64,000 nt of DNA from CAVYHJ01 sp963768165 [NCBI: uncultured bacterium] (GTDB lineage Bacteria > UBP4 > UBA4092): assembly GCA_963768165.1 (NCBI GenBank), contig CAVYHJ010000028.1, positions 124,001 through 188,000 of the forward strand, written 5' to 3'. Position 1 is the first letter of the stretch; the number at the start of each line of letters is the position of its first letter. The notes below the pieces were generated by a model. It was not told the DNA's origin, made no database searches, and saw nothing but the letters and a program-made list of their open reading frames with translations. The position numbers were made by a program, and so were the translations under genes. Shown here in pieces: positions 7,826 to 60,410 of this stretch.

Positions 7826-7914
7826 TGTCATTCTGAGCACAGCGAAGAATCCCTGTATTCTGATTAAGGCGATACGACCTTAAATTGAGATTCTTCGCTG
7901 CGCTCAGAATGACA
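7826..7914. repeat. Palindromic element, copy A (TGTCATTCTGA family)
   Basis: An 89-bp element with terminal inverted repeats: it opens TGTCATTCTGAGCACAGCGA and closes with TCGCTGCGCTCAGAATGACA. The internal part resembles that of the copies at 43497 and 60316. It is intergenic, between the epimerase start and the DUF507 genes. It looks like a non-coding, MITE-like or REP-like repeat. Confidence 0.85.
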
Positions 7915-33485: not shown

Positions 33486-33986
33486 TTATTCTTGCGCACC
33501 GGCGCTTTTTAGGAGTTTTATGATGTCGGGATATTTATTGGATGCTGCTAATTTTAAGGCGGTGTTACCCACAGCGGCTTTCGTATTAACTGCTGCGCCT
33601 TTCGCTAATAAGGCTTGTACGGTCTCTGTATGGCCATACTGTGCCGCAAACATCAAGGCGGTTCTACCCGTGCTGTCTTTCGCATTAACCTCCGCGCCTT
33701 TCGCCAATAAGGCTTGCACGGTCTCTGTTTGGCCAAACCAGGATGCGGACATCAAGGCAGTCTGACCCCCGTTGTCTTTTACATTTGGATTCATCCCTGC
33801 ATCCAAAAACAATTTTACGGCGTCAGTTCTGCCTGCCTGTGTCCAGAAGAGAAAATCTTTTTCGGTATATTTAATCTTCATTTGTGCCAATTCATTTCTC
33901 GCATTTTTCTGGGTTTTGGCGTAGGAAGGGAATACGAGCGACAAGGATAATAACAGATAGAGGCTTTTACATGGAACGAATTTCAT
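33486..33986 (-). CDS. Secreted ankyrin-repeat protein
   Basis: A 166-residue protein with signal peptide (MKFVPCKSLYLLLSLSLVFP, cleaved near YAKT) and at least three ankyrin repeats: AVKLFLDAGMNPNVKDNGG, QTALMSASWFGQTETVQALL, KGAEVNAKDSTGRTALMFAA and a further unit to KLLKSAGAQE. The two central repeats share the same bases in part, the sign of recent repeat expansion. A protein-protein interaction role in the periplasm is likely. It has no obvious operon partner. Confidence 0.85.
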   Translation of the reverse strand: MKFVPCKSLYLLLSLSLVFPSYAKTQKNARNELAQMKIKYTEKDFLFWTQAGRTDAVKLFLDAGMNPNVKDNGGQTALMSASWFGQTETVQALLAKGAEVNAKDSTGRTALMFAAQYGHTETVQALLAKGAAVNTKAAVGNTALKLAASNKYPDIIKLLKSAGAQE

Positions 33987-40492: not shown

Positions 40493-40894
40493 TTATCTTT
40501 TTTTAATATCTCGTGGTAGCCGACTAATAATAAATTTCTTGATCTTGACTGCAATATCAATCGCTTGGCGTGTTGTTTCTATCGAAGGCCAAAATTCATC
40601 ATCGTACCGCAGTTCAACTGCATAAGGAGTTAATTCTTCTCCCAATACTTTAACGCTTTTAAAAGAAGGATCATTTTGAATACAAAGCTGAATCAACTTT
40701 TCCAGGTTATGAATAAAGGGATATTCAATATCGTTCGCGGTTAAATAGGCTTTAATATATTTCTCTGCGGCTTGTTGTGTATGGAAACAGGCGGTATCCA
40801 AGGCTTGCTCTGAGGTCAAACATATCCTGGCATTGGTAAGATCACTTTCCGCTTTCTTCAACAATCCCTTGACCAAATCAGCCTTTTTTTTCAT
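40493..40894 (-). CDS. HEPN-domain protein of a HEPN/MNT pair
   Basis: A 133-residue helical HEPN protein. The pattern ARICLTSEQALDTACFHTQQ, AAEKYIKAYLTANDIEYPF and HNLEKLI is typical. In such pairs the HEPN partner is the toxin and usually an RNase. The canonical Rx4-6H motif is not obvious here, so activity cannot be assumed. The start overlaps the nucleotidyltransferase gene by 17 bp. Confidence 0.88.
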   Translation of the reverse strand: MKKKADLVKGLLKKAESDLTNARICLTSEQALDTACFHTQQAAEKYIKAYLTANDIEYPFIHNLEKLIQLCIQNDPSFKSVKVLGEELTPYAVELRYDDEFWPSIETTRQAIDIAVKIKKFIISRLPRDIKKR

Positions 40895-41252
40895 ACAATA
40901 CTTTTCCTTCGCGAAGGGCTGTGGTCACAAAGGCTTGCCGGATACGGCTCCATTCCTTTACTTCTTTGGGATTGTATACCAGAATATCCATGGGTATCAG
41001 AATATCTCGCAAGATTCCGTATAGGGGAATTGACCTTTTATACCTTGGCTCTTTGGAATCTGCAATGACCAGTAAATCAATATCACTGTCTTTCCGGTTA
41101 TCCCCGCGCCCCCTGCTTCCAAATAAGACTATCTTTTCAGGACGGATTAGATTTACTATCCTATTACGAATTTCGTCGAGGGTTGAATCTTTTATGGCGT
41201 TTTCCAAAATATATTTCTCCTTATGCACTGTTACAGGTTTATTATATATCAA
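40878..41252 (-). CDS. MNT-type nucleotidyltransferase
   Basis: A 124-residue minimal nucleotidyltransferase. The active site is GSRGRGDNRKDSDIDLLV: a GS motif followed by D-x-D. In HEPN/MNT pairs this protein blocks its HEPN partner, in some systems by adenylylating it. It is followed by the overlapping HEPN gene on the same strand. A zinc-finger-like gene lies 27 bp upstream and could belong to the same unit. Confidence 0.92.
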   Translation of the reverse strand: MIYNKPVTVHKEKYILENAIKDSTLDEIRNRIVNLIRPEKIVLFGSRGRGDNRKDSDIDLLVIADSKEPRYKRSIPLYGILRDILIPMDILVYNPKEVKEWSRIRQAFVTTALREGKVLYEKKG

Positions 41253-42043: not shown

Positions 42044-43474
42044 TTAACTTAGTTTCTTTAAGAGCAATTCTCGCACAATCTGAGGATTGGCTTTTCCTTT
42101 GGAGGCTTTCATGACCTGGCCAACGATGGAATTGAGAGCGCCCTCTTTTCCACCTTTGAATTCTTTGACCGCCGCCTGGTTATTGGCGATGGCTTCATCC
42201 ACAATTTTTTCAATGGCGCCGGTATCCGTAATCTGCACCAATCCCTTTTCTTTGACGTAAGCTTCCGGCGATGTAGTAGTTCGGAGAACATCCATAAATA
42301 CATTCTTGGCGGTTTTCCCGTTGATAGTTTGGTTGTCAATCAATTTCACCAATTCCGCCAGTTGCGTGGGTGAAATCGGAAATTCTTCCAGCTTGGTTTC
42401 TTTTCCTGACAATTCCCGCATGAGTTCCGCCATAATCCAATTGCTGATGGCTTTGGGGTTCTTGTGCAATATCGCCGTCGTCTCAAAAAAATCCGCGATG
42501 GCTTTGCTGCTGGTCAACACGCCCGCGTCATACAACGGCAAATCATATTGTTTCACAAATCGGTTTCTGCGTACCGTGGGCAATTCCGTCAGGGTCTTTT
42601 TAATTTCATCAATCAAGGAGAACGGAATTTCCAACGGCACCAAATCCGGTTCCGGGAAATAACGGTAATCATGGGCTTGTTCCTTTGACCGCATGGAACG
42701 GGTTACGTTCTCAGTGGAATCCCACAACCGCGTTTCCTGCACAATCTTTCCGCCTTCGTCCAACACTGCAATCTGCCTTTTCAATTCATATTCCAAGGCC
42801 TTTTCCACAAATCGAAAGGAATTGATATTCTTGACTTCCGTCTTTACGCCAAATTCTTTTTGTCCCACCGGACGAACTGAAATATTGGCATCGCATCGCA
42901 AACTGCCTTCTTCCATATTCCCGTCGCATACTTCGATATATTGCAAAATCGCCCGCAGCATTTGCATATATTCCTTCGCTTCTTCCGGCGAGCGCAAATC
43001 AGGCTCACTCACGATTTCCATAAGCGGTGTGCCCGTACGGTTCAAGTCAACATAACTTTCTCCATGTCCCGAATGAATCAATTTCCCGGCATCTTCTTCA
43101 ATATGCACCCGCGTAATCCCAATCCGCTTGGTTCCATTTTCCACGGGAATTTCAATATGCCCCTTCACAGATAAAGGTTGTTCATATTGGGAAATCTGGA
43201 AATTCTTGGGGAGGTCGGGATAATAATAATTCTTACGCGCGAATCGGCTGTACGGCGCAATCTCACAATTCAACGCCAGGGCGGTTTTGATGATCATGCG
43301 CAGCGCTTCTTTGTTGAGAACCGGCAATACGCCGGGATACCCCGTGCAAATGGGACAAATCTGGGAATTCGGTTCCTCGCCAAATTTCGTCCCGCAGGAA
43401 CAAAAGATTTTTGATTTAGTTAATAACTGGGCATGTACTTCCAGCCCTATGACACATTCATATTTGTTTGACAT
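42044..43474 (-). CDS. gatB: Asp/Glu-tRNA amidotransferase subunit B
   Basis: Subunit of the GatCAB complex, which converts mischarged Glu-tRNA-Gln or Asp-tRNA-Asn to the amide form. The 476 residues are normal. The opening EVHAQLLTKSKIFCSCGTKF and CPICTGYPGVLPVLN (zinc Cys motifs), YYYPDLPKNFQISQYEQPL and RTGTPLMEIVSEPD are conserved. The YqeY-like tail is complete. gatA follows only after a palindromic element and a GIY-YIG gene that lie in between; no gatC is adjacent. Together with the AspRS this suggests Asn-tRNA or Gln-tRNA by transamidation. Confidence 0.96.
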   Translation of the reverse strand: MSNKYECVIGLEVHAQLLTKSKIFCSCGTKFGEEPNSQICPICTGYPGVLPVLNKEALRMIIKTALALNCEIAPYSRFARKNYYYPDLPKNFQISQYEQPLSVKGHIEIPVENGTKRIGITRVHIEEDAGKLIHSGHGESYVDLNRTGTPLMEIVSEPDLRSPEEAKEYMQMLRAILQYIEVCDGNMEEGSLRCDANISVRPVGQKEFGVKTEVKNINSFRFVEKALEYELKRQIAVLDEGGKIVQETRLWDSTENVTRSMRSKEQAHDYRYFPEPDLVPLEIPFSLIDEIKKTLTELPTVRRNRFVKQYDLPLYDAGVLTSSKAIADFFETTAILHKNPKAISNWIMAELMRELSGKETKLEEFPISPTQLAELVKLIDNQTINGKTAKNVFMDVLRTTTSPEAYVKEKGLVQITDTGAIEKIVDEAIANNQAAVKEFKGGKEGALNSIVGQVMKASKGKANPQIVRELLLKKLS

Positions 43475-43496
43475 GTTAATATTTCTTTCCTTTATT

Positions 43497-43605
43497 TGTC
43501 ATTCTGACCCTGAGCCTGCGAAGGGGAAGAATCCCAGTGTTCTACCTGATGTTAAGCGACTTTTACCGGGATTCTTCGTCCTAAAGAGCAGGACTCAGAA
43601 TGACA
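43497..43605. repeat. Palindromic element, copy B (TGTCATTCTGA family)
   Basis: About 109 bp from TGTCATTCTGACCCTGAGCC to GACTCAGAATGACA. Its interior (GTGTTCTACCTGA and onward to AAGCGACTTTT) matches, in reverse, the interior of the copy at 60316. It lies right after the gatB start and 3 bp before the GIY-YIG stop codon. Confidence 0.85.
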
Positions 43606-43608
43606 GAT

Positions 43609-43893
43609 TTAGAACCATCCTTCACTTAAATCTAGCCATGTTGGATTCATAGATTCGATCAATTGAATTTTCTTTTTTCTAAGCCATCCTTTAATTTCTT
43701 TCTCTCGACCAATGGCGATACCTACATCGTTAGTTTCTTCAAAATAAACTAATTTACCCATATTGTATTTTTTTGTAAAACCTTCTATTGTTTTATTTTT
43801 ATGTTCCCATACTCGTCGTTCCAAGTCGTTTGTAAATCCAACATATATTCTTCTTGTCACGCTCGACATGATATACACATAATACGATTTCAC
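43609..43893 (-). CDS. GIY-YIG endonuclease-like protein
   Basis: A 94-residue single-domain GIY-YIG protein of the YhbQ/UPF0213-like class. The signature is split as YYVYIMSS and IYVGFTNDLERRVWEHKNK, with Arg in the helix and Glu near FEETNDVGIAIGREKEIKGW. The Tyr, Tyr, Arg and Glu positions are all present, so it could cleave DNA. The start is GTG without a clear ribosome site. The stop codon is 3 bp from palindromic copy B, and the start is next to half-copy C. Such genes tend to accompany this repeat type, from memory; that association is worth testing. Confidence 0.88.
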   Translation of the reverse strand: MKSYYVYIMSSVTRRIYVGFTNDLERRVWEHKNKTIEGFTKKYNMGKLVYFEETNDVGIAIGREKEIKGWLRKKKIQLIESMNPTWLDLSEGWF

Positions 43894-43900
43894 GTTTCTG

Positions 43901-43950
43901 CGACTTCAGACCGGGATTCTTCGTCTTAAAGAGCAGGACTCAGAATGACA
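43901..43950. repeat. Half of a palindromic element, copy C
   Basis: The sequence from CGACTTCAGACCGGGATTCT to AGGACTCAGAATGACA matches the right half of copy B (43556-43605) almost base for base. The left half is absent. The direct repeat of this half on both sides brackets the GIY-YIG gene. gatA's stop codon is 2 bp past its end. Confidence 0.85.
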
Positions 43951-43952
43951 AA

Positions 43953-45419
43953 CTATACCACTCCTAAAGGTGATTTCTTCTTATGATACTCTGTATTTTG
44001 TTCCAAAGTATACGCCGTGCGGAATATACTGGCTTCATCAAAATGTTTCGCCATGATTTGTAATCCGATTGGCAATCCATCCGCGAACCCGCAGGGCATA
44101 CTTATCGCGGGTATCCCGCCGAGGTTGACCGAAATCGTGAATATATCCGACAAATACATCTGCAACGGGTCTCCCATTTTTTCGCCAATCTTAAATGCCG
44201 GTGTGGGTGCGGTCGGTGTCAATATCACATCGCACTCCTTGAACGCTTCATCAAAATCTTGTTTGATTAACGTACGCACTTTTTGCGCTTTCAAATAATA
44301 CGCCTCATAATATCCCGCGCTCAGAACGTGCGTCCCCAGCATAATACGTCGTTTAACTTCCCGCCCGAATCCTTCACTGCGGGTTTTCATGTACATATCA
44401 ATCATGTCGTTATATTCTTTCGCGCGATACCCGTATTTCACCCCGTCATATCTGGCGAGATTGGAACTGGCTTCCGCCGTCGCTACTAAATAATACGTCG
44501 CCACGGCATATTCCGTATGCGGTAATGAAATATCCACCGTCGTTGCGCCAAGCGATTCCAATAACTTAATCGCTTCCTTAACCGCCTTCTCCACTCCCGC
44601 GTCCAACCCGCCGATAAAATATTCTTTGGGAATTCCTAATTTCATACCTTTCACATCTTTCACCAGTGACTTGGTATAATCCGGTACTTCCACATTCGCC
44701 GAAGTCGAATCCATCTTGTCATGTCCGGCAATTACATTCATGATGAGTGCCGCGTCCGTGATATCTTTGGTCATGGGCCCGATACAATCCAAGGATGAAG
44801 CGTATGCCACCAGGCCAAATCGCGATACCCGCCCGTAAGTCGGTTTTAATCCTACAATCCCGCAACAGGATGCCGGTTGTCGGATGGACCCGCCGGTATC
44901 TGTACCCAGCGCGATGATACCTTCATCTGCCGCCATCGCTGCCGCCGAGCCACCGCTTGACCCACCGGGGATAGTGTCTAAATTCCAGGGATTGTGTGTG
45001 ATTCCATAATAGGAAGTTTCCGTGGATGACCCCATCGCAAACTCGTCCATGTTGACTTTACCGACCATTACGGTTCCTTGTTCTTCCAATTTCTTGACTG
45101 CAGTCCCCGTGTAAGGTGGGATAAATCCCTTGAGTATATGCGACCCGCACGTGGTTTGTACCCCTTTCGTGCAAAGCACATCTTTCACTGCAATGGGAAT
45201 CCCAGTTAAGGGTTGAATTGGTTTTCCGCTCTTGATTTCATTATCAATTTCCACGGCTTTCTGGAAGGCTGATTCCTTGGTGAGTGTAACATAGGCATGA
45301 ACTTTCGGTTCCACCTTCTCGATTTGTTGATACACCGATTCAATAATCGCCGTCGCAGTCGTTTCCCCGCGTTTTAACAATTCATGTAATTGATTTGCAG
45401 TTTTTCCAGCTAAACTCAT
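43953..45419 (-). CDS. gatA: Asp/Glu-tRNA amidotransferase subunit A
   Basis: Amidase subunit that releases ammonia from glutamine for GatB. The 488 residues carry the amidase signature: Lys in [14 protein letters not shown], the cis-Ser/Ser nucleophile region in [17 protein letters not shown], and [19 protein letters not shown]. The ATG at 45419 follows AGGACATCAG and gives the usual N-terminus ([11 protein letters not shown]). An in-frame ATG at 45470 would add a 17-residue segment made of a doubled heptad, coded by a tandem repeat. The region before gatB is interrupted by the GIY-YIG unit. Confidence 0.95.
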
Positions 45420-45431
45420 TCTGATGTCCTT

Positions 45432-45473
45432 GTAAGAGATTTCATGCAATGGATAAGAGATACCATGCAATGG
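45432..45473. repeat. Tandem 21-bp direct repeat in the gatA leader
   Basis: Two 21-bp units, 45432-45452 and 45453-45473, differing at 3 positions (GTAAGAGATTTCATGCAATGG and ATAAGAGATACCATGCAATG). It lies in the leader of gatA and could be an operator or a slippage product. Confidence 0.75.
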
Positions 45474-52290: not shown

Positions 52291-52379
52291 TAATATAAAT
52301 TGCTATGGTTATAAATAATTAAGATTTGCCGAGTAATTTATTTTGGTTATCTGAGAATATTCTATAAATAATATTAATT

Positions 52380-52799
52380 TTATCGAATCATAATAGTCAC
52401 ATAATCCGGCAACCGCCATGCTGGTGTATCAAGTTTTGTGCGCACTTCAAATCTTGCAGTTATCTTTTCTCTTATTCTTTGAATTTCATCACTAATTATT
52501 GGCAAACTTCTATTGGTAAGAAGCATTACAGGTATATTATGCGTGTTAACTTGATTAATATTATCCATCAGAAACTTTATTCCAGCATCCAAACCAACCA
52601 GTTCTTTGTCCCAATCTCTTGACGGTGGCATAATAATATCAAGAATAACTATTTCAATATTTTGGATATTTTGATTTAATACTCTCTGTGCTTCTTCAAG
52701 ATTATTGACATATACAACACGTTGCTTTCCGAATCCTTCACGAAGTTCCTCAAGATAATAACGAACAGCAAATGGTTCATCATCAATAAAAAGAATCAT
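52380..52799 (-). CDS. Single-domain response-regulator receiver, copy 1
   Basis: A 139-residue receiver domain without output domain. The acidic pair IDDEP, the phospho-acceptor Asp in VILDIIMPPSRDWDKELVG, a Thr in LLTNR and Lys in VRTKLDTPAW are the conserved residues. There is an unusual insertion after the acceptor. It is about four-fifths identical to copy 2 at 54109. It is separated from its likely kinase by a gene of unknown function. It may be a phosphate sink or work by protein contact. Confidence 0.85.
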   Translation of the reverse strand: MILFIDDEPFAVRYYLEELREGFGKQRVVYVNNLEEAQRVLNQNIQNIEIVILDIIMPPSRDWDKELVGLDAGIKFLMDNINQVNTHNIPVMLLTNRSLPIISDEIQRIREKITARFEVRTKLDTPAWRLPDYVTIMIR

Positions 52800-52811
52800 A
52801 TATTTCTATCC

Positions 52812-53297
52812 TTATAGCTTTTTTTTAACTTTTTTTGCTAATTCTTTCAAATTATAATCATTTGTACGATGAATTATTCCATCTATTTGTCCTTTGAGAA
52901 AGACCTTTAAATTACTACTCCATGCGTCAACATCATTATAAATTATTCCAAGAGCCTCTTTTAGTTCATCATTATCTGCCAAGTCAATAAATTTAATATA
53001 TGCTATTCTACGCAATTCATATATATTCTTCCAGATAATATTTAATACATCATTTAAATATTGCAAATTTAAAGTATGGGATATACATGATAATCCTACC
53101 GCTGCTTTGTATAGTTGCTCTGTATGATATAGATGTGTGTATATATCTTTATAAACTCTTTTACCAGGCAATTCATACCAATCAGGTTTATAAAAGCGCC
53201 AATAGCTTTTTTTAAATATTTTAGTATATTTAAATAATATTTCTACGAATAACTTGATTACAAACTCTTTTAAAAATATTAATAAAGAAGCATCCAT
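52812..53297 (-). CDS. Unknown protein in the kinase/receiver cluster
   Basis: A 161-residue protein, mostly helical and rich in Lys, Asn and Tyr (PDWYELPGKRVYKDIYTHLY, YNDVDAWSSNLKVFLKGQID). No motif is recognised. It lies between receiver copy 1 and the short kinase, 12 bp from the former; no equivalent gene is present in the other kinase/receiver pair. It is very AT-rich and may be an effector or an output protein of the small cluster. Confidence 0.5.
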   Translation of the reverse strand: MDASLLIFLKEFVIKLFVEILFKYTKIFKKSYWRFYKPDWYELPGKRVYKDIYTHLYHTEQLYKAAVGLSCISHTLNLQYLNDVLNIIWKNIYELRRIAYIKFIDLADNDELKEALGIIYNDVDAWSSNLKVFLKGQIDGIIHRTNDYNLKELAKKVKKKL

Positions 53298-53372
53298 ATA
53301 ATTTATAAAATTTTTTGTTTCAATTGCATTTATTAGAGAATATTAAGTAGTATTTGCCTATTATTTTATTTA

Positions 53373-54077
53373 CTATACTCCCTTTTTATGTGGAAAACAT
53401 AATATGAATTCGGTCATATTCACTTTGCTTTTAAGTTTAATATGCCCATTAACAATGTCCATTATTTTTTTTACTACATAAAGCCCTAATCCTTGACCAG
53501 GATGTCCTGATTCAATTCCCACACTTCCTCTATAAAAGGGTAAGAAAATATCGTTAAATTCAGATTCTGGTATTTGAGGACCATAATCAAGTACAGATAT
53601 AGAAAAGGTTTCCCTTCCCGGATTGAACCATGCCTTAATCTCTATATCTGTATTTCGATATGCATATTTAATCGCATTCATTAATAGATTAAAAAGAGCC
53701 TGTTCCACTAAATCTGGATCTATATAAACCTTACCCAGTGAATCAAAATCTGAAAAGGATAACCGTAACTTGTAATTAGATGCTATATTATAAAATATGG
53801 CTTTTATTCTGGTCACAATTTCCTCTAAATTGACTAACCTTGGATTAGTCGGAAGATCAGCACTCCAAATCCAATCTGTTTGTTTCAATAACATAAGAAG
53901 AAATTCAGATGTATTATAAGTATCGTCGATCGGATATTTAACTTTTTCATAAACACCTAACTTTTTTAACTTTTTACTAAGACTATTTGAAGCATCGCGA
54001 ATTGTGGTTCCAGCTGATTTTAAATCATGAAACAAAACAGTAAAAGCCTCATCTTTTTTTATCATTTCATTATTCAT
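53373..54077 (-). CDS. Short histidine kinase (kinase core only)
   Basis: A 234-residue protein with only the catalytic half of a sensor kinase. The H-box is LFHDLKSAGTTIRDASNSL, the N-box NLLMNAIKYAYRN, and the G-boxes are LDYGPQIPESEF and GHPGQGLGLYVVKKIMD. It lacks the GAF sensory part of the 726-residue paralogue, to whose C-terminal portion it is closely similar. Soluble. It probably acts with receiver copy 1. It could be a truncated duplication or a deliberately sensor-less kinase driven by another protein. Confidence 0.88.
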   Translation of the reverse strand: MNNEMIKKDEAFTVLFHDLKSAGTTIRDASNSLSKKLKKLGVYEKVKYPIDDTYNTSEFLLMLLKQTDWIWSADLPTNPRLVNLEEIVTRIKAIFYNIASNYKLRLSFSDFDSLGKVYIDPDLVEQALFNLLMNAIKYAYRNTDIEIKAWFNPGRETFSISVLDYGPQIPESEFNDIFLPFYRGSVGIESGHPGQGLGLYVVKKIMDIVNGHIKLKSKVNMTEFILCFPHKKGV

Positions 54078-54108
54078 TTATAAATTAATCCCAAAGTAAA
54101 TATTAATT

Positions 54109-54528
54109 TTATCGAATAATAACAGTAACATACTCTGGTAACCTCCATGCCGGCGTATCAAGTTTTGTACGCACTTCAAATCTGGCAGTTATTTTTTCTC
54201 TTATTCTTTGAATTTCATCACTAATTTTTGACAAATCTCTATTGGTAAGAAACATTACGGGTATATTATGTGTATTAACTCGTTCAATATTATCTATTAG
54301 AAATTTAATTCCTGCATTCAAACCAACCAATTCTTTGTCCCAATCTTTGGGTATTGGCATCATAATATCAAGAATAATTATTTCTATATTTTGAATATTT
54401 TGTTGTAATACTCTCTGTGCTTCTTTAAGATCATCGACATATACAACATATTCCTGTCCGAATTTTTCACGAAGTTCCTCAAGATAGTAGCGAACAGCCT
54501 GTGGTTCATCGTCAATAAAGAAAATCAT
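54109..54528 (-). CDS. Single-domain response-regulator receiver, copy 2
   Basis: A 139-residue receiver, paralogue of copy 1: IDDEP, phospho-acceptor in IILDIMMPIPKDWDKELVG, FLTNR, VRTKLDTPAW. Its start codon overlaps the last base of the large kinase gene. No DNA-binding domain. Divergence from copy 1 is concentrated near the N-terminus and before the acceptor. Confidence 0.88.
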   Translation of the reverse strand: MIFFIDDEPQAVRYYLEELREKFGQEYVVYVDDLKEAQRVLQQNIQNIEIIILDIMMPIPKDWDKELVGLNAGIKFLIDNIERVNTHNIPVMFLTNRDLSKISDEIQRIREKITARFEVRTKLDTPAWRLPEYVTVIIR

Positions 54529-56708
54529 TATTTTATTCCTTTCTTATAGGGAAATATTAATATAAATTCGGTTTTATTTTCTTCACTTTTAAGTTCAATA
54601 TGTCCGTTAACAATGTCCATAATTTTTTTAATAATATAGCAACCCAATCCTTGACCGGGATGTCCCGATTCAATTCCTACACTTCCCCTATAAAAGGGCA
54701 AGAAGATATCTTTGAATTCTGAAGTGGGTATCTTCGGACCATAATCAAGTACAGAAATAGAAAAAGATTCCATTCTAAGATTGAACCATGCCTTAATCTC
54801 TATATCGGTATTTTGATATGCATATTTAATTGCATTCATTAATAAATTAAAAAGAGCTTGTTCCACTAAATCTGGATCTATATAAACCATACCTAGTGAA
54901 TCAAAACCTGAAAAGGACAACCGTAACTTGTGATTAATAGTAATATTATAAAACATGGCTTTTAGTCTAGCCACAATTCCCTCTAAATTGACTAACTTTG
55001 GATTACACGGAAGATTAGTGCCAGGGATTCTTCCTGTTTGTTTCAAAAGTGCAAGAAGAAATTCAGATGTATTATAAGTATCGTCGATTGGGTATTTAAT
55101 TTTCTCATAAACACCTAAAGTTTTTAACTTTTTACTAAGACTATTTGAAGCATCGCGAATTGTGGTTCCAGCAGATTTTAAATCATGAACTGATATAGCC
55201 AATCCTTCTTCTCTTTTCAATTGGACATCGATCATTTGGAGAACGGGACTAAGTTGTTCGGCTATGAACGATAGATTCCCAAGATCAAATCGAAAAAATT
55301 CGAGATTTGCTTTACCCAAAACAGCTTGTTTCTCTACACATCTAATAACTCCGATTACGTTATTTCCAGATATAATTGGGACAAATAAAAATGGATACTT
55401 ATCTAGTTTATTAATTTTCTTTTCTACATATTTTCCTTTTGTACCAAGCATCTTATGCGTTGGTATTCCAGTTAAAAATACATTACCTGTAGTACCCTCA
55501 CCTTTATGATACTTTACTGTTTCTAATGGTGGATTTCCTTCAATTCCCGTTGTAGCGACACATTTAATATTTTCTTCGTCATCTGTTCTTACAAATATAC
55601 TGACTCCATAAACATTAAGATATTCTTTAATTAATTTAATAACACCATCATAGAATTTTTCAGATTTTTCCTTTACAGACTGGATAGGACTAGCACCAAA
55701 AGCATTACGAAACCATAAGTTAAACTTGTCTAAAATCTCTAATTTTTGATATATAAATGAATCTTGCAAAAAAAGTGAACTGTATTTGCCTAAATCATAT
55801 AAACGTTCATTTCTTTGATAAAAATGTTGTTCTGATTCAATGAATAAGTCCACTACCCCTAGACAAATTGCTTTATCATCTTTTACAGATTCATGAATTA
55901 GAGGGATACATATCAATTCATTGTATTCATGATTGATTATAGGAAGCCTGATTACCTTTTTCTCTATTAAACATAATTTCTCTTTTTCATCTCCTTTGAT
56001 TATGCATGTTTCGAGATTCGGCGAGTCTTCACTCCAGCCTGACAAAACAAATTCATCTGAAAGCTCATTATAAAGCCATATTTTCACATATCTGGCATGA
56101 GATAAACTCTTCCATGCTTTTGCCAAAATGGAAAGAACGTTTTCTGGCGTACCTCTTGCATCAAATATTAATTTCTCTCTAAACATTCTTCTATCTTCAT
56201 TTAATGATGGAGATTCTAATGAACTTATTAATTGAATATAGGGAGATAGGGTTTTAATTAAAAACTCAAGATATTCACGTTCATATTTTGTGAATCCATC
56301 TTTTTCCTCTTTTGAAAAAATAAAATAAAAATTACATTTTATGGACGTAATAAATATCCCCAAAGCTGAACCATTGGTTGATATTCCTAGTGTACTTATA
56401 TCTGATATATAATGTGATTGATTATTTTCAACTATTGGGGATTTACCTAATATTGTTTGGTTGGTAACTTTTCTGTCCATAAGAATATTGGGTTCTTTTT
56501 TTTCAACTGTAATTGCATAACCAGAAGTAAATTGCTTATCTACTGAGTCTCTTTTATCTAGAAGCAAAAAACTTATTTTTAGGATGGAAAAATTATTAAA
56601 AAGTGGCTCAGATATAATACGTAAAATATCTTTAGGAGTTAATTTATCTTTTTGCTTAACAATCTCATCCGCAACATCACTTAATAATTTTATATGATTA
56701 TTACGCAT
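54528..56708 (-). CDS. Soluble hybrid-like sensor histidine kinase with three GAF-like domains
   Basis: A 726-residue cytoplasmic kinase. Three sensory GAF-like regions occupy about residues 15-165, 175-325 and 345-490 (the third contains YLNVYGVSIFVRTDDEENIK and GEGTTGNVFLTGIPTH). The dimerisation helix has the H-box ISVHDLKSAGTTIRDA at about residue 506, with the N-box LLMNAIKYAYQNT and G-box LDYGPKIPTSEF and GQGLGCYIIKKI after it. It lacks membrane helices, so the signal is intracellular. The gene is much more AT-rich than the flanking YgfK-like genes and borders an insertion sequence. It pairs with receiver copy 2. Confidence 0.9.
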   Translation of the reverse strand: MRNNHIKLLSDVADEIVKQKDKLTPKDILRIISEPLFNNFSILKISFLLLDKRDSVDKQFTSGYAITVEKKEPNILMDRKVTNQTILGKSPIVENNQSHYISDISTLGISTNGSALGIFITSIKCNFYFIFSKEEKDGFTKYEREYLEFLIKTLSPYIQLISSLESPSLNEDRRMFREKLIFDARGTPENVLSILAKAWKSLSHARYVKIWLYNELSDEFVLSGWSEDSPNLETCIIKGDEKEKLCLIEKKVIRLPIINHEYNELICIPLIHESVKDDKAICLGVVDLFIESEQHFYQRNERLYDLGKYSSLFLQDSFIYQKLEILDKFNLWFRNAFGASPIQSVKEKSEKFYDGVIKLIKEYLNVYGVSIFVRTDDEENIKCVATTGIEGNPPLETVKYHKGEGTTGNVFLTGIPTHKMLGTKGKYVEKKINKLDKYPFLFVPIISGNNVIGVIRCVEKQAVLGKANLEFFRFDLGNLSFIAEQLSPVLQMIDVQLKREEGLAISVHDLKSAGTTIRDASNSLSKKLKTLGVYEKIKYPIDDTYNTSEFLLALLKQTGRIPGTNLPCNPKLVNLEGIVARLKAMFYNITINHKLRLSFSGFDSLGMVYIDPDLVEQALFNLLMNAIKYAYQNTDIEIKAWFNLRMESFSISVLDYGPKIPTSEFKDIFLPFYRGSVGIESGHPGQGLGCYIIKKIMDIVNGHIELKSEENKTEFILIFPYKKGIK

Positions 56709-60315: not shown

Positions 60316-60410
60316 TGTCATTCTGAGCGCAGCGAAGAATCTCGGTCTAAAGTCGTGTAGTGTCAGGTAGAACACAGGGATTCTTCGTCGCTTCGCTCCT
60401 CAGAATGACA
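60316..60410. repeat. Palindromic element, copy D (TGTCATTCTGA family)
   Basis: About 95 bp, from TGTCATTCTGAGCGCAGCGA to GCTCCTCAGAATGACA. The interior is the reverse of that in copy B. It lies 13 bp after the YgfK-like stop codon and could affect transcript ends. Confidence 0.85.

Follow-up and report, generated by a model that had tools for sequence, protein, structure and literature searches.

REP-associated tyrosine transposases (RAYTs; REP, repetitive extragenic palindrome) are HUH enzymes whose genes are flanked by hairpins, and inverted doublets of these hairpins (REPINs) are the dispersed form, as set out by Bertels and Rainey (2011; PMC3116915). Here, we describe a gene flanked by hairpins in a similar way in a 64,000-nucleotide stretch of contig CAVYHJ010000028.1 from an uncultured bacterium (the window), but with a 94-amino acid GIY-YIG nuclease as the enzyme, which has homologues of 53-71% identity in many phyla. 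The pairing of this nuclease with palindromic repeats is strongly supported as being general across many phyla and specific to its subfamily. It is likely that the gene and its flanking hairpins are one selfish or domesticated unit, i.e., a REP-associated GIY-YIG nuclease with its own recognition hairpins. The unit would work like RAYT/REP, but is no member of that system because the HUH transposase is absent.

Small GIY-YIG nucleases with cognate repeats are also said to occur in Neisseria, where Ssn nucleases reportedly cut single-stranded DNA at the NTS repeat; a study from 2025 reportedly describes them and could cover part of the findings given here. No literature linking GIY-YIG proteins to REPs was found among the matches listed in our search, which left most subscription papers outside its scope.

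The repeats themselves are closest to the CGTC-tagged REPs. In the portion of the original description examined (Di Nocera, De Gregorio, and Rocco, 2013; PMC3733652), these are reported from five phyla with TGTC stated as a variant of the tag, the Neisseria family CGTC-1 is equated with dRS3, association with a transposase gene is given as '-' in Table 1 and what spreads the repeats is left open; the term 'GIY' does not occur in that text. The present hairpins share with CGTC-tagged REPs the CGTC/TGTC tag, the A-T start of the stem, the head-to-head dimers, the many copies and the presence in several phyla, and hairpins of strict grammar were found beside the nuclease under 23 NCBI phylum labels as compared to the five phyla reported. 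Long-stem hairpins beside the nuclease, mostly in Alphaproteobacteria, fit the described REPs (8-9 bp stem, 4-5 nt loop, mostly a CCA tail), whereas the window hairpins differ in their 5-bp stem, their GA/GA step, their inner part and a tail that is not CCA. Since the window contains the TGTC tag in 7/7 hairpins, the ATTCT stem in 7/7 and three head-to-head doublets, its hairpins are close to, but because of stem length and tail outside, the published definition.

The features of the window are as follows.

43609 to 43893, minus strand: GIY-YIG nuclease gene, 94 amino acids (open reading frame with PF01541 match, E 1.7e-13)
43916 to 43950, minus strand: single hairpin repeat upstream of the nuclease start, of the grammar TGTC-ATTCT-GA-...-GA-AGAAT-C; the repeated stretch extends to 43910
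43571 to 43605, minus strand: inner half of a doublet past the nuclease stop, on the same strand as the upstream hairpin
43497 to 43532, plus strand: outer half of the doublet, a hairpin repeat on the strand opposite to the inner half
43497 to 43605, no strand assigned: complete head-to-head doublet (REPIN-like or like a miniature inverted-repeat transposable element, MITE) between the nuclease stop and gatB; fold as single-stranded DNA (ssDNA), z = -4.10
7826 to 7914, no strand assigned: gene-free doublet with halves at 7826-7850 (plus) and 7890-7914 (minus); ssDNA fold z = -10.11
60316 to 60410, no strand assigned: gene-free doublet with halves at 60316-60340 (plus) and 60380-60410 (minus); ssDNA fold z = -5.15
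42044 to 43474, minus strand: gatB, downstream neighbour of the nuclease gene (PF02934, E=7.5e-126)
43953 to 45470, minus strand: amidase-family protein taken as gatA, upstream neighbour of the nuclease gene (PF01425, E=9.3e-162)

Read on the minus strand, the order is thus gatA, the GIY-YIG gene and gatB, with the single hairpin 22 bp before the nuclease start and the doublet 3 bp after its stop; the unit may have inserted between the two gat genes. An earlier note on this DNA had described the gene as bracketed by pieces of a palindromic element with one copy directly after the stop codon; both points were confirmed, the copy after the stop being a complete inverted doublet. The direct repeat that it had placed on both sides of the gene also exists, but it measures 41 bp (98% identity between 43910-43950 and the near half of the doublet) and not 50 bp. 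The 64-kb window holds seven hairpins of the TGTC-ATTCT-GA-inner-GA-AGAAT-C grammar, whereas 30 Markov-generated windows averaged 0.03 and never held more than 1, and TGTCATTCTGA occurs eight times with at most one mismatch, against 1.4 expected. Part of the doublet at 60316-60410 resembles 43526-43563 of the doublet beside the gene (38 nt, 84%). A lone half folded as ssDNA no better than shuffles (z 0.54). Nothing in Rfam matched 43400-44000 up to E 1, which ruled out a known RNA there.

The same arrangement was found around relatives of the nuclease. As homologues we used the best 80 of at least 574 confirmed relatives, one genome per species, most of them near full length; they span Chloroflexota, Nitrospinota, Planctomycetota, Acidobacteriota, Pseudomonadota, Bacillota, several groups of the candidate phyla radiation (CPR) and more. 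A hairpin was present within 250 bp on either side of the gene at 71/80 loci, and at 67/80 under the strict grammar. The structure-based scan, which asks for the tag, a T-C at the close and a 5-bp stem with A as its first base but leaves the stem sequence otherwise free, placed hairpins within the same distance upstream at 64/80 loci, downstream at 59/80 and as an inverted bracket at 47/80. Hairpin density within 100 bp was 9.7/kb upstream and 8.9/kb downstream as compared to 0.15-0.28/kb at 1-5 kb, the upstream value declining to 0.17-0.18/kb beyond 1 kb, and the orientation within 100 bp was inverted between the two sides (upstream 60 plus and 17 minus, downstream 18 plus and 53 minus). Together with the seven hairpins against the Markov mean, this density ruled out chance repeats as the origin of the window hairpins. 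When only intergenic DNA of the same loci was counted, 177 hairpins in 20,663 bp beside the gene (8.57/kb) stood against 61 in 100,960 bp elsewhere (0.60/kb), a 14-fold excess. An inverted match across the gene, scored without reference to any motif, reached at least 14 at 42/76 loci, in 109/760 mismatched-locus pairs and in 1/351 control windows.

The specificity for this subfamily was evident in two whole-genome samples, the phylum of genome G001 (Chloroflexota, 121 genomes) and the class of genome G010 (Alphaproteobacteria, 190 genomes), both centre genomes having been picked for possessing the nuclease. GIY-YIG matches in these samples split into a strong group, which is the subfamily of the window protein, and a weak group. 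Counting distinct genes with a retrieved neighbourhood, a subset of all matches, 59/75 strong genes had a hairpin within 200 bp as compared to 2/25 other GIY-YIG genes (p 3e-10); two of the 75 (L081 and L127) are identical to loci among the 80 homologues. Hairpins within this distance were upstream of 46 of the strong genes, downstream of 49 and formed an inverted bracket around 29. The weaker relatives thus mostly lack flanking hairpins, unlike the subfamily of the window nuclease, and a single one of 16 PF01541 loci taken from genomes rich in repeats had a hairpin within 250 bp, these loci being mostly of UvrC size and most of them readable on one side only. Near-identical tandem copies of the nuclease-hairpin unit, 508-649 bp apart, were observed at L095, L099 and L108, with L095 and L108 representing a single position in genome G118, and multi-unit hairpin arrays adjoin the nuclease at L001, L004, L206 and similar loci.

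The window protein belongs to the GIY-YIG nuclease superfamily by its PF01541 match, invariant residues and fold. The catalytic role in these enzymes is assigned to conserved Tyr, Arg, Glu and Asn, and Y7, R27, E64 and N83 occupy invariant columns across 77 aligned nuclease rows. The AlphaFold model (predicted local distance difference test, pLDDT, 95.9) had the UPF0213 protein 1zg2 as its top Foldseek match (E 9e-5); 1ywl, also of UPF0213, and entries for Slx1, a nuclease of branched DNA, came next at E above 0.01. Proteins of the UPF0213 type, also called YhbQ-like, are like the window nuclease in size and fold, and 1zg2 and 1ywl are its nearest solved structures by sequence and fold, with 26-27% identity in the fold alignment. 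GIY-YIG was the sole Pfam match at E 0.001 or better, with no HUH transposase, and in-frame stops were present in 4/80 homologues. An anti-phage defence family was ruled out for the nuclease by the lack of a PADLOC match, and a phage gene by the lack of a confirmed relative in viral contigs. The phage collection held distant matches only, in 11 records at 36-40% identity, 10 of which are Rhizobium phages.

Covariation of the stems indicates that the hairpins are real structures, probably formed by DNA. Within 250 bp, 164/257 5' halves were followed by their own complement, as compared to a mean of 29.6 and a maximum of 46 with permuted stems; this test and the inner pairs of alignment A3 are free of stem-selection bias. 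In A3, whose 40 rows were chosen by hand from 29-nt hairpins preselected with the 5-bp stem filter, compensating changes on both sides were seen at both inner pairs and at 4/5 outer pairs, and in A4, the alignment of the long-stem class, at 8/9 pairs; the outer-stem counts of both are biased because rows were preselected on their stems, those of A4 having passed a 7-bp stem filter or been taken from plasmid loci. The first stem pair is A-T throughout both alignments, the scan itself having imposed A as the first and T as the last base, and the second is T-A in 37/40 rows of A3 and 17/21 of A4. Where the inner part is 7 nt long, 61/82 hairpin copies had a G-N-A loop. On G-C stems, GNA loops form DNA mini-hairpins of extraordinary stability (PMC4686876), which would fit recognition of the hairpin as single-stranded DNA. 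The computed fold of one 29-nt copy did not exceed that of its shuffles in stability (z 0.45).

Hairpin type followed the nuclease lineage. The nearest hairpins to the left and right of a gene had identical 5-nt stems in 38/84 cases (shuffled mean 9.8, maximum 20) and belonged to the same of two classes, GA-interrupted (GA class) or continuous long stem, in 75/84 (shuffled mean 35.8, maximum 50). On the nuclease tree, class required 3 changes as compared to 25-37 when shuffled (107 rows, omitting the window protein and 16 rows of neither class) and likewise 3 as compared to 26-36 when the window protein was included (108 rows); this tree is poorly resolved, with 66/119 inner branches open, and its long-stem rows come mostly from one bacterial class. 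Source groups mix on it (12 changes for 23 Chloroflexota rows), and within Chloroflexota alone class changed once as compared to at least three times when shuffled (17 rows). Moreover, the rate at which dispersed hairpins at distances above 1 kb had the stem type of the flank was 0.55, as compared to 0.27 on average and 0.50 at most when shuffled (24 loci). In G255, which carries 10 strong paralogues, seven have hairpins within 200 bp and their stem types are mostly different. As nuclease lineages pair with hairpin types of their own, these pairs could also serve as a naturally occurring nuclease library in which target specificity is readable. At residue 74, 70/70 GA-class rows, the window included, have K or R and 34/38 long-stem rows have W, the exceptions being L005 (K), L089 (R), L133 (K) and L180 (M); as a specificity switch this residue was kept as a lead and not a test, because the pattern essentially amounts to a single deep division of the nuclease tree.

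Nuclease and repeats also co-occurred across genomes, an enrichment that the earlier note had proposed to look for. With R1, R2 and R3 denoting hairpin repeat models whose copy numbers derive from the best 38-61 scored candidates per genome, at least five copies of R1 were present in 14/21 Chloroflexota genomes with a strong nuclease as compared to 13/100 without (p 1.3e-6), and R2/R3 repeats in 44/54 Alphaproteobacteria with and 16/136 without (p 3.6e-20); these p-values overstate independence because the counted genomes share ancestry. Strong-nuclease Chloroflexota without an R1 match (G051, G078, G086, G094 and G118) bear other CGTC/TGTC hairpin classes at their loci, and of the 9/54 strong-nuclease Alphaproteobacteria without an R2/R3 match, two (G010 and G198) have GA-class hairpins by the gene (L127 and L140).

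Among plasmids, tblastn identified 32 records with a homologue, and 7/8 of those inspected have hairpins adjoining the gene. In Azospirillum lipoferum 4B, a doublet-gene-doublet unit, the first doublet of which contains one imperfect hairpin, separates sufB from sufC by a gap of 617 bp. Eleven other Azospirillum plasmids lack the unit and align with both flanks as two segments that cover 87-88% of the query, the sufB-sufC gap being 55-129 bp in the four measured, and no hairpins were found at the six gene-free sites scanned. Similarly, the unit is present in the Shinella plasmids WSC3-e, WSD5-1 and HZN7, the first two not differing across the query, whereas the corresponding site of H4-D48, PSBB067 and a S. 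sumterensis plasmid yielded neither gene nor hairpin (three sites scanned). In two plasmid lineages, gene and hairpins thus occur together or are missing together as a block, and the lack of hairpins at gene-free sites implies that the hairpins arrived with the gene or that both were lost together. A search for a clean empty site with plasmids of Rhizobium tumorigenes, Rhizobium CIAT894 and Planktothrix found none, and a comparison through relatives of G255 gave one flank only. The collection also includes a homologue inside a CGTC-hairpin array of N. gonorrhoeae (43% identical), a possible counterpart of SsnA with its NTS repeat, and in Planktothrix the gene likewise lies within repeat arrays. 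Two records of the plasmid collection look chromosomal, the 2.17-Mb N. gonorrhoeae record (L205) and the 3.7-Mb S. meliloti 'pSymB' (L207).

How such a unit might act can be sketched as follows. Where a region becomes single-stranded, as in the lagging-strand template or in incoming transformation DNA, the hairpin would fold; the nuclease, probably an Ssn-type enzyme acting on single strands, would recognise tag and hairpin and nick the strand; and host repair or replication may then re-copy the released hairpin-gene-hairpin, or a doublet, elsewhere. Doublets found dispersed would be non-autonomous and stand in the same relation to the nuclease as REPINs to RAYTs, with a hydrolytic GIY-YIG enzyme in place of the HUH transposase. 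Hairpin cutting, a strand preference and the way in which the unit would move are inferred. On the wider proposal that a hydrolytic GIY-YIG nuclease mobilises the CGTC/TGTC REP superfamily by reading its repeats as ssDNA hairpins, which often have a GNA mini-loop, and that nuclease lineages co-evolve with their own hairpins, we place somewhat less than even weight. If true, it would constitute a second, independent REP-type mobile system in bacteria, spread over many phyla. The position of a specific enzyme subfamily beside hairpins like the CGTC-tagged REPs suggests that this enzyme is the partner which a very common family of repeats has been lacking, and with the controls above, the question of what spreads these REPs becomes directly testable.

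Several observations weigh against the reading of gene and hairpins as one mobile unit. GIY-YIG enzymes hydrolyse DNA and do not join it; movement would therefore need host repair, which is the weakest step. No recognisable hairpin was present near 9/80 homologues and 16/75 strong genes, nor adjoining the Rhizobium tumorigenes homologue. Conversely, at least 10 copies of R2/R3 were present in 11/136 Alphaproteobacteria and at least 26 copies of R1 in 6/100 Chloroflexota without a strong nuclease. The flanks of the gene-free sites are too diverged to place exact ends or a target-site duplication, and within Alphaproteobacteria alone hairpin class carried no signal on the tree (2 changes as compared to a shuffled mean of 2.0; 27 rows, two of them GA-class). 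The shared ancestry behind the co-occurrence p-values counts in the same direction. The earlier note had named nucleases without repeats and abundant repeats without a nuclease as speaking against its REP/RAYT-like pairing; both were encountered in a minority, the majority of genes being flanked, and the pairing itself was strongly supported in many phyla with controls.

The repeat-rich genomes without the nuclease may reflect incomplete assemblies, past losses or other partners. In the 9 of the 11 such Alphaproteobacteria that were checked, no strong-subfamily nuclease was found, and their PF01541 proteins are mostly of UvrC size. Hairpin-rich genomes with no strong-nuclease match include G307, G225, G174 and G237 (Alphaproteobacteria) and G128 and G073 (Chloroflexota).

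Among the other explanations, the one that survives best, although we consider it unlikely, is that the pair is immobile and is kept because the nuclease cuts incoming single strands at the repeats, thereby tuning natural transformation or DNA repair. Such a role, reportedly that of Ssn and its repeats in Neisseria, agrees with the gonococcal homologue in its CGTC-repeat array, with the invariant catalytic columns and with the DNA-stable GNA-type loops, which suggest action on single-stranded DNA. However, the patchy distribution of the strong subfamily (21/121 Chloroflexota and 54/190 Alphaproteobacteria genomes, with up to 10 strong copies in one, G255), the in-frame stops and the presence or absence of the unit between related plasmids look mobile rather than housekeeping.

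More doubtful still is that the nuclease is a homing endonuclease which cuts pre-existing hairpin repeats and is copied in by repair, the hairpins being spread by other means. GIY-YIG enzymes are classical homing nucleases, and the position of the window gene between direct repeat copies, as well as that of homologues inside repeat arrays in Planktothrix and Neisseria, would be expected of one. A homing endonuclease finds its target intact in empty alleles, whereas the nine gene-free sites scanned, six in Azospirillum and three in Shinella, were free of hairpins too. Finally, that the gene merely lies in long gaps where hairpins gather for reasons such as termination or mRNA stability is very improbable, and such generic intergenic clutter was rejected as the sole cause: some genomes are indeed full of hairpins without the nuclease, but the 14-fold excess over other intergenic DNA of the same loci and the rarity of hairpins at other GIY-YIG genes (2/25) and at the mostly UvrC-size PF01541 loci (1/16) contradict it, and it leaves the left/right matching and the tracking of class on the nuclease tree unexplained.

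Apart from the gene-hairpin unit, at about 2.4 kb from the nuclease gene, the window contains a HEPN-MNT pair, a known type of toxin-antitoxin system, at 40493-41252 on the minus strand. Its HEPN protein (PF05168, E 2.8e-23) is overlapped there by a small nucleotidyltransferase (PF18765/PF01909) that also matches the PADLOC candidate models PDC-S09. Duplicated blocks of 184-300 bp with 82-87% identity, spaced by 1158 and 1729 bp, were observed at 52370-55217, and two 99-bp copies, 77% alike, lie side by side at 33543-33740.
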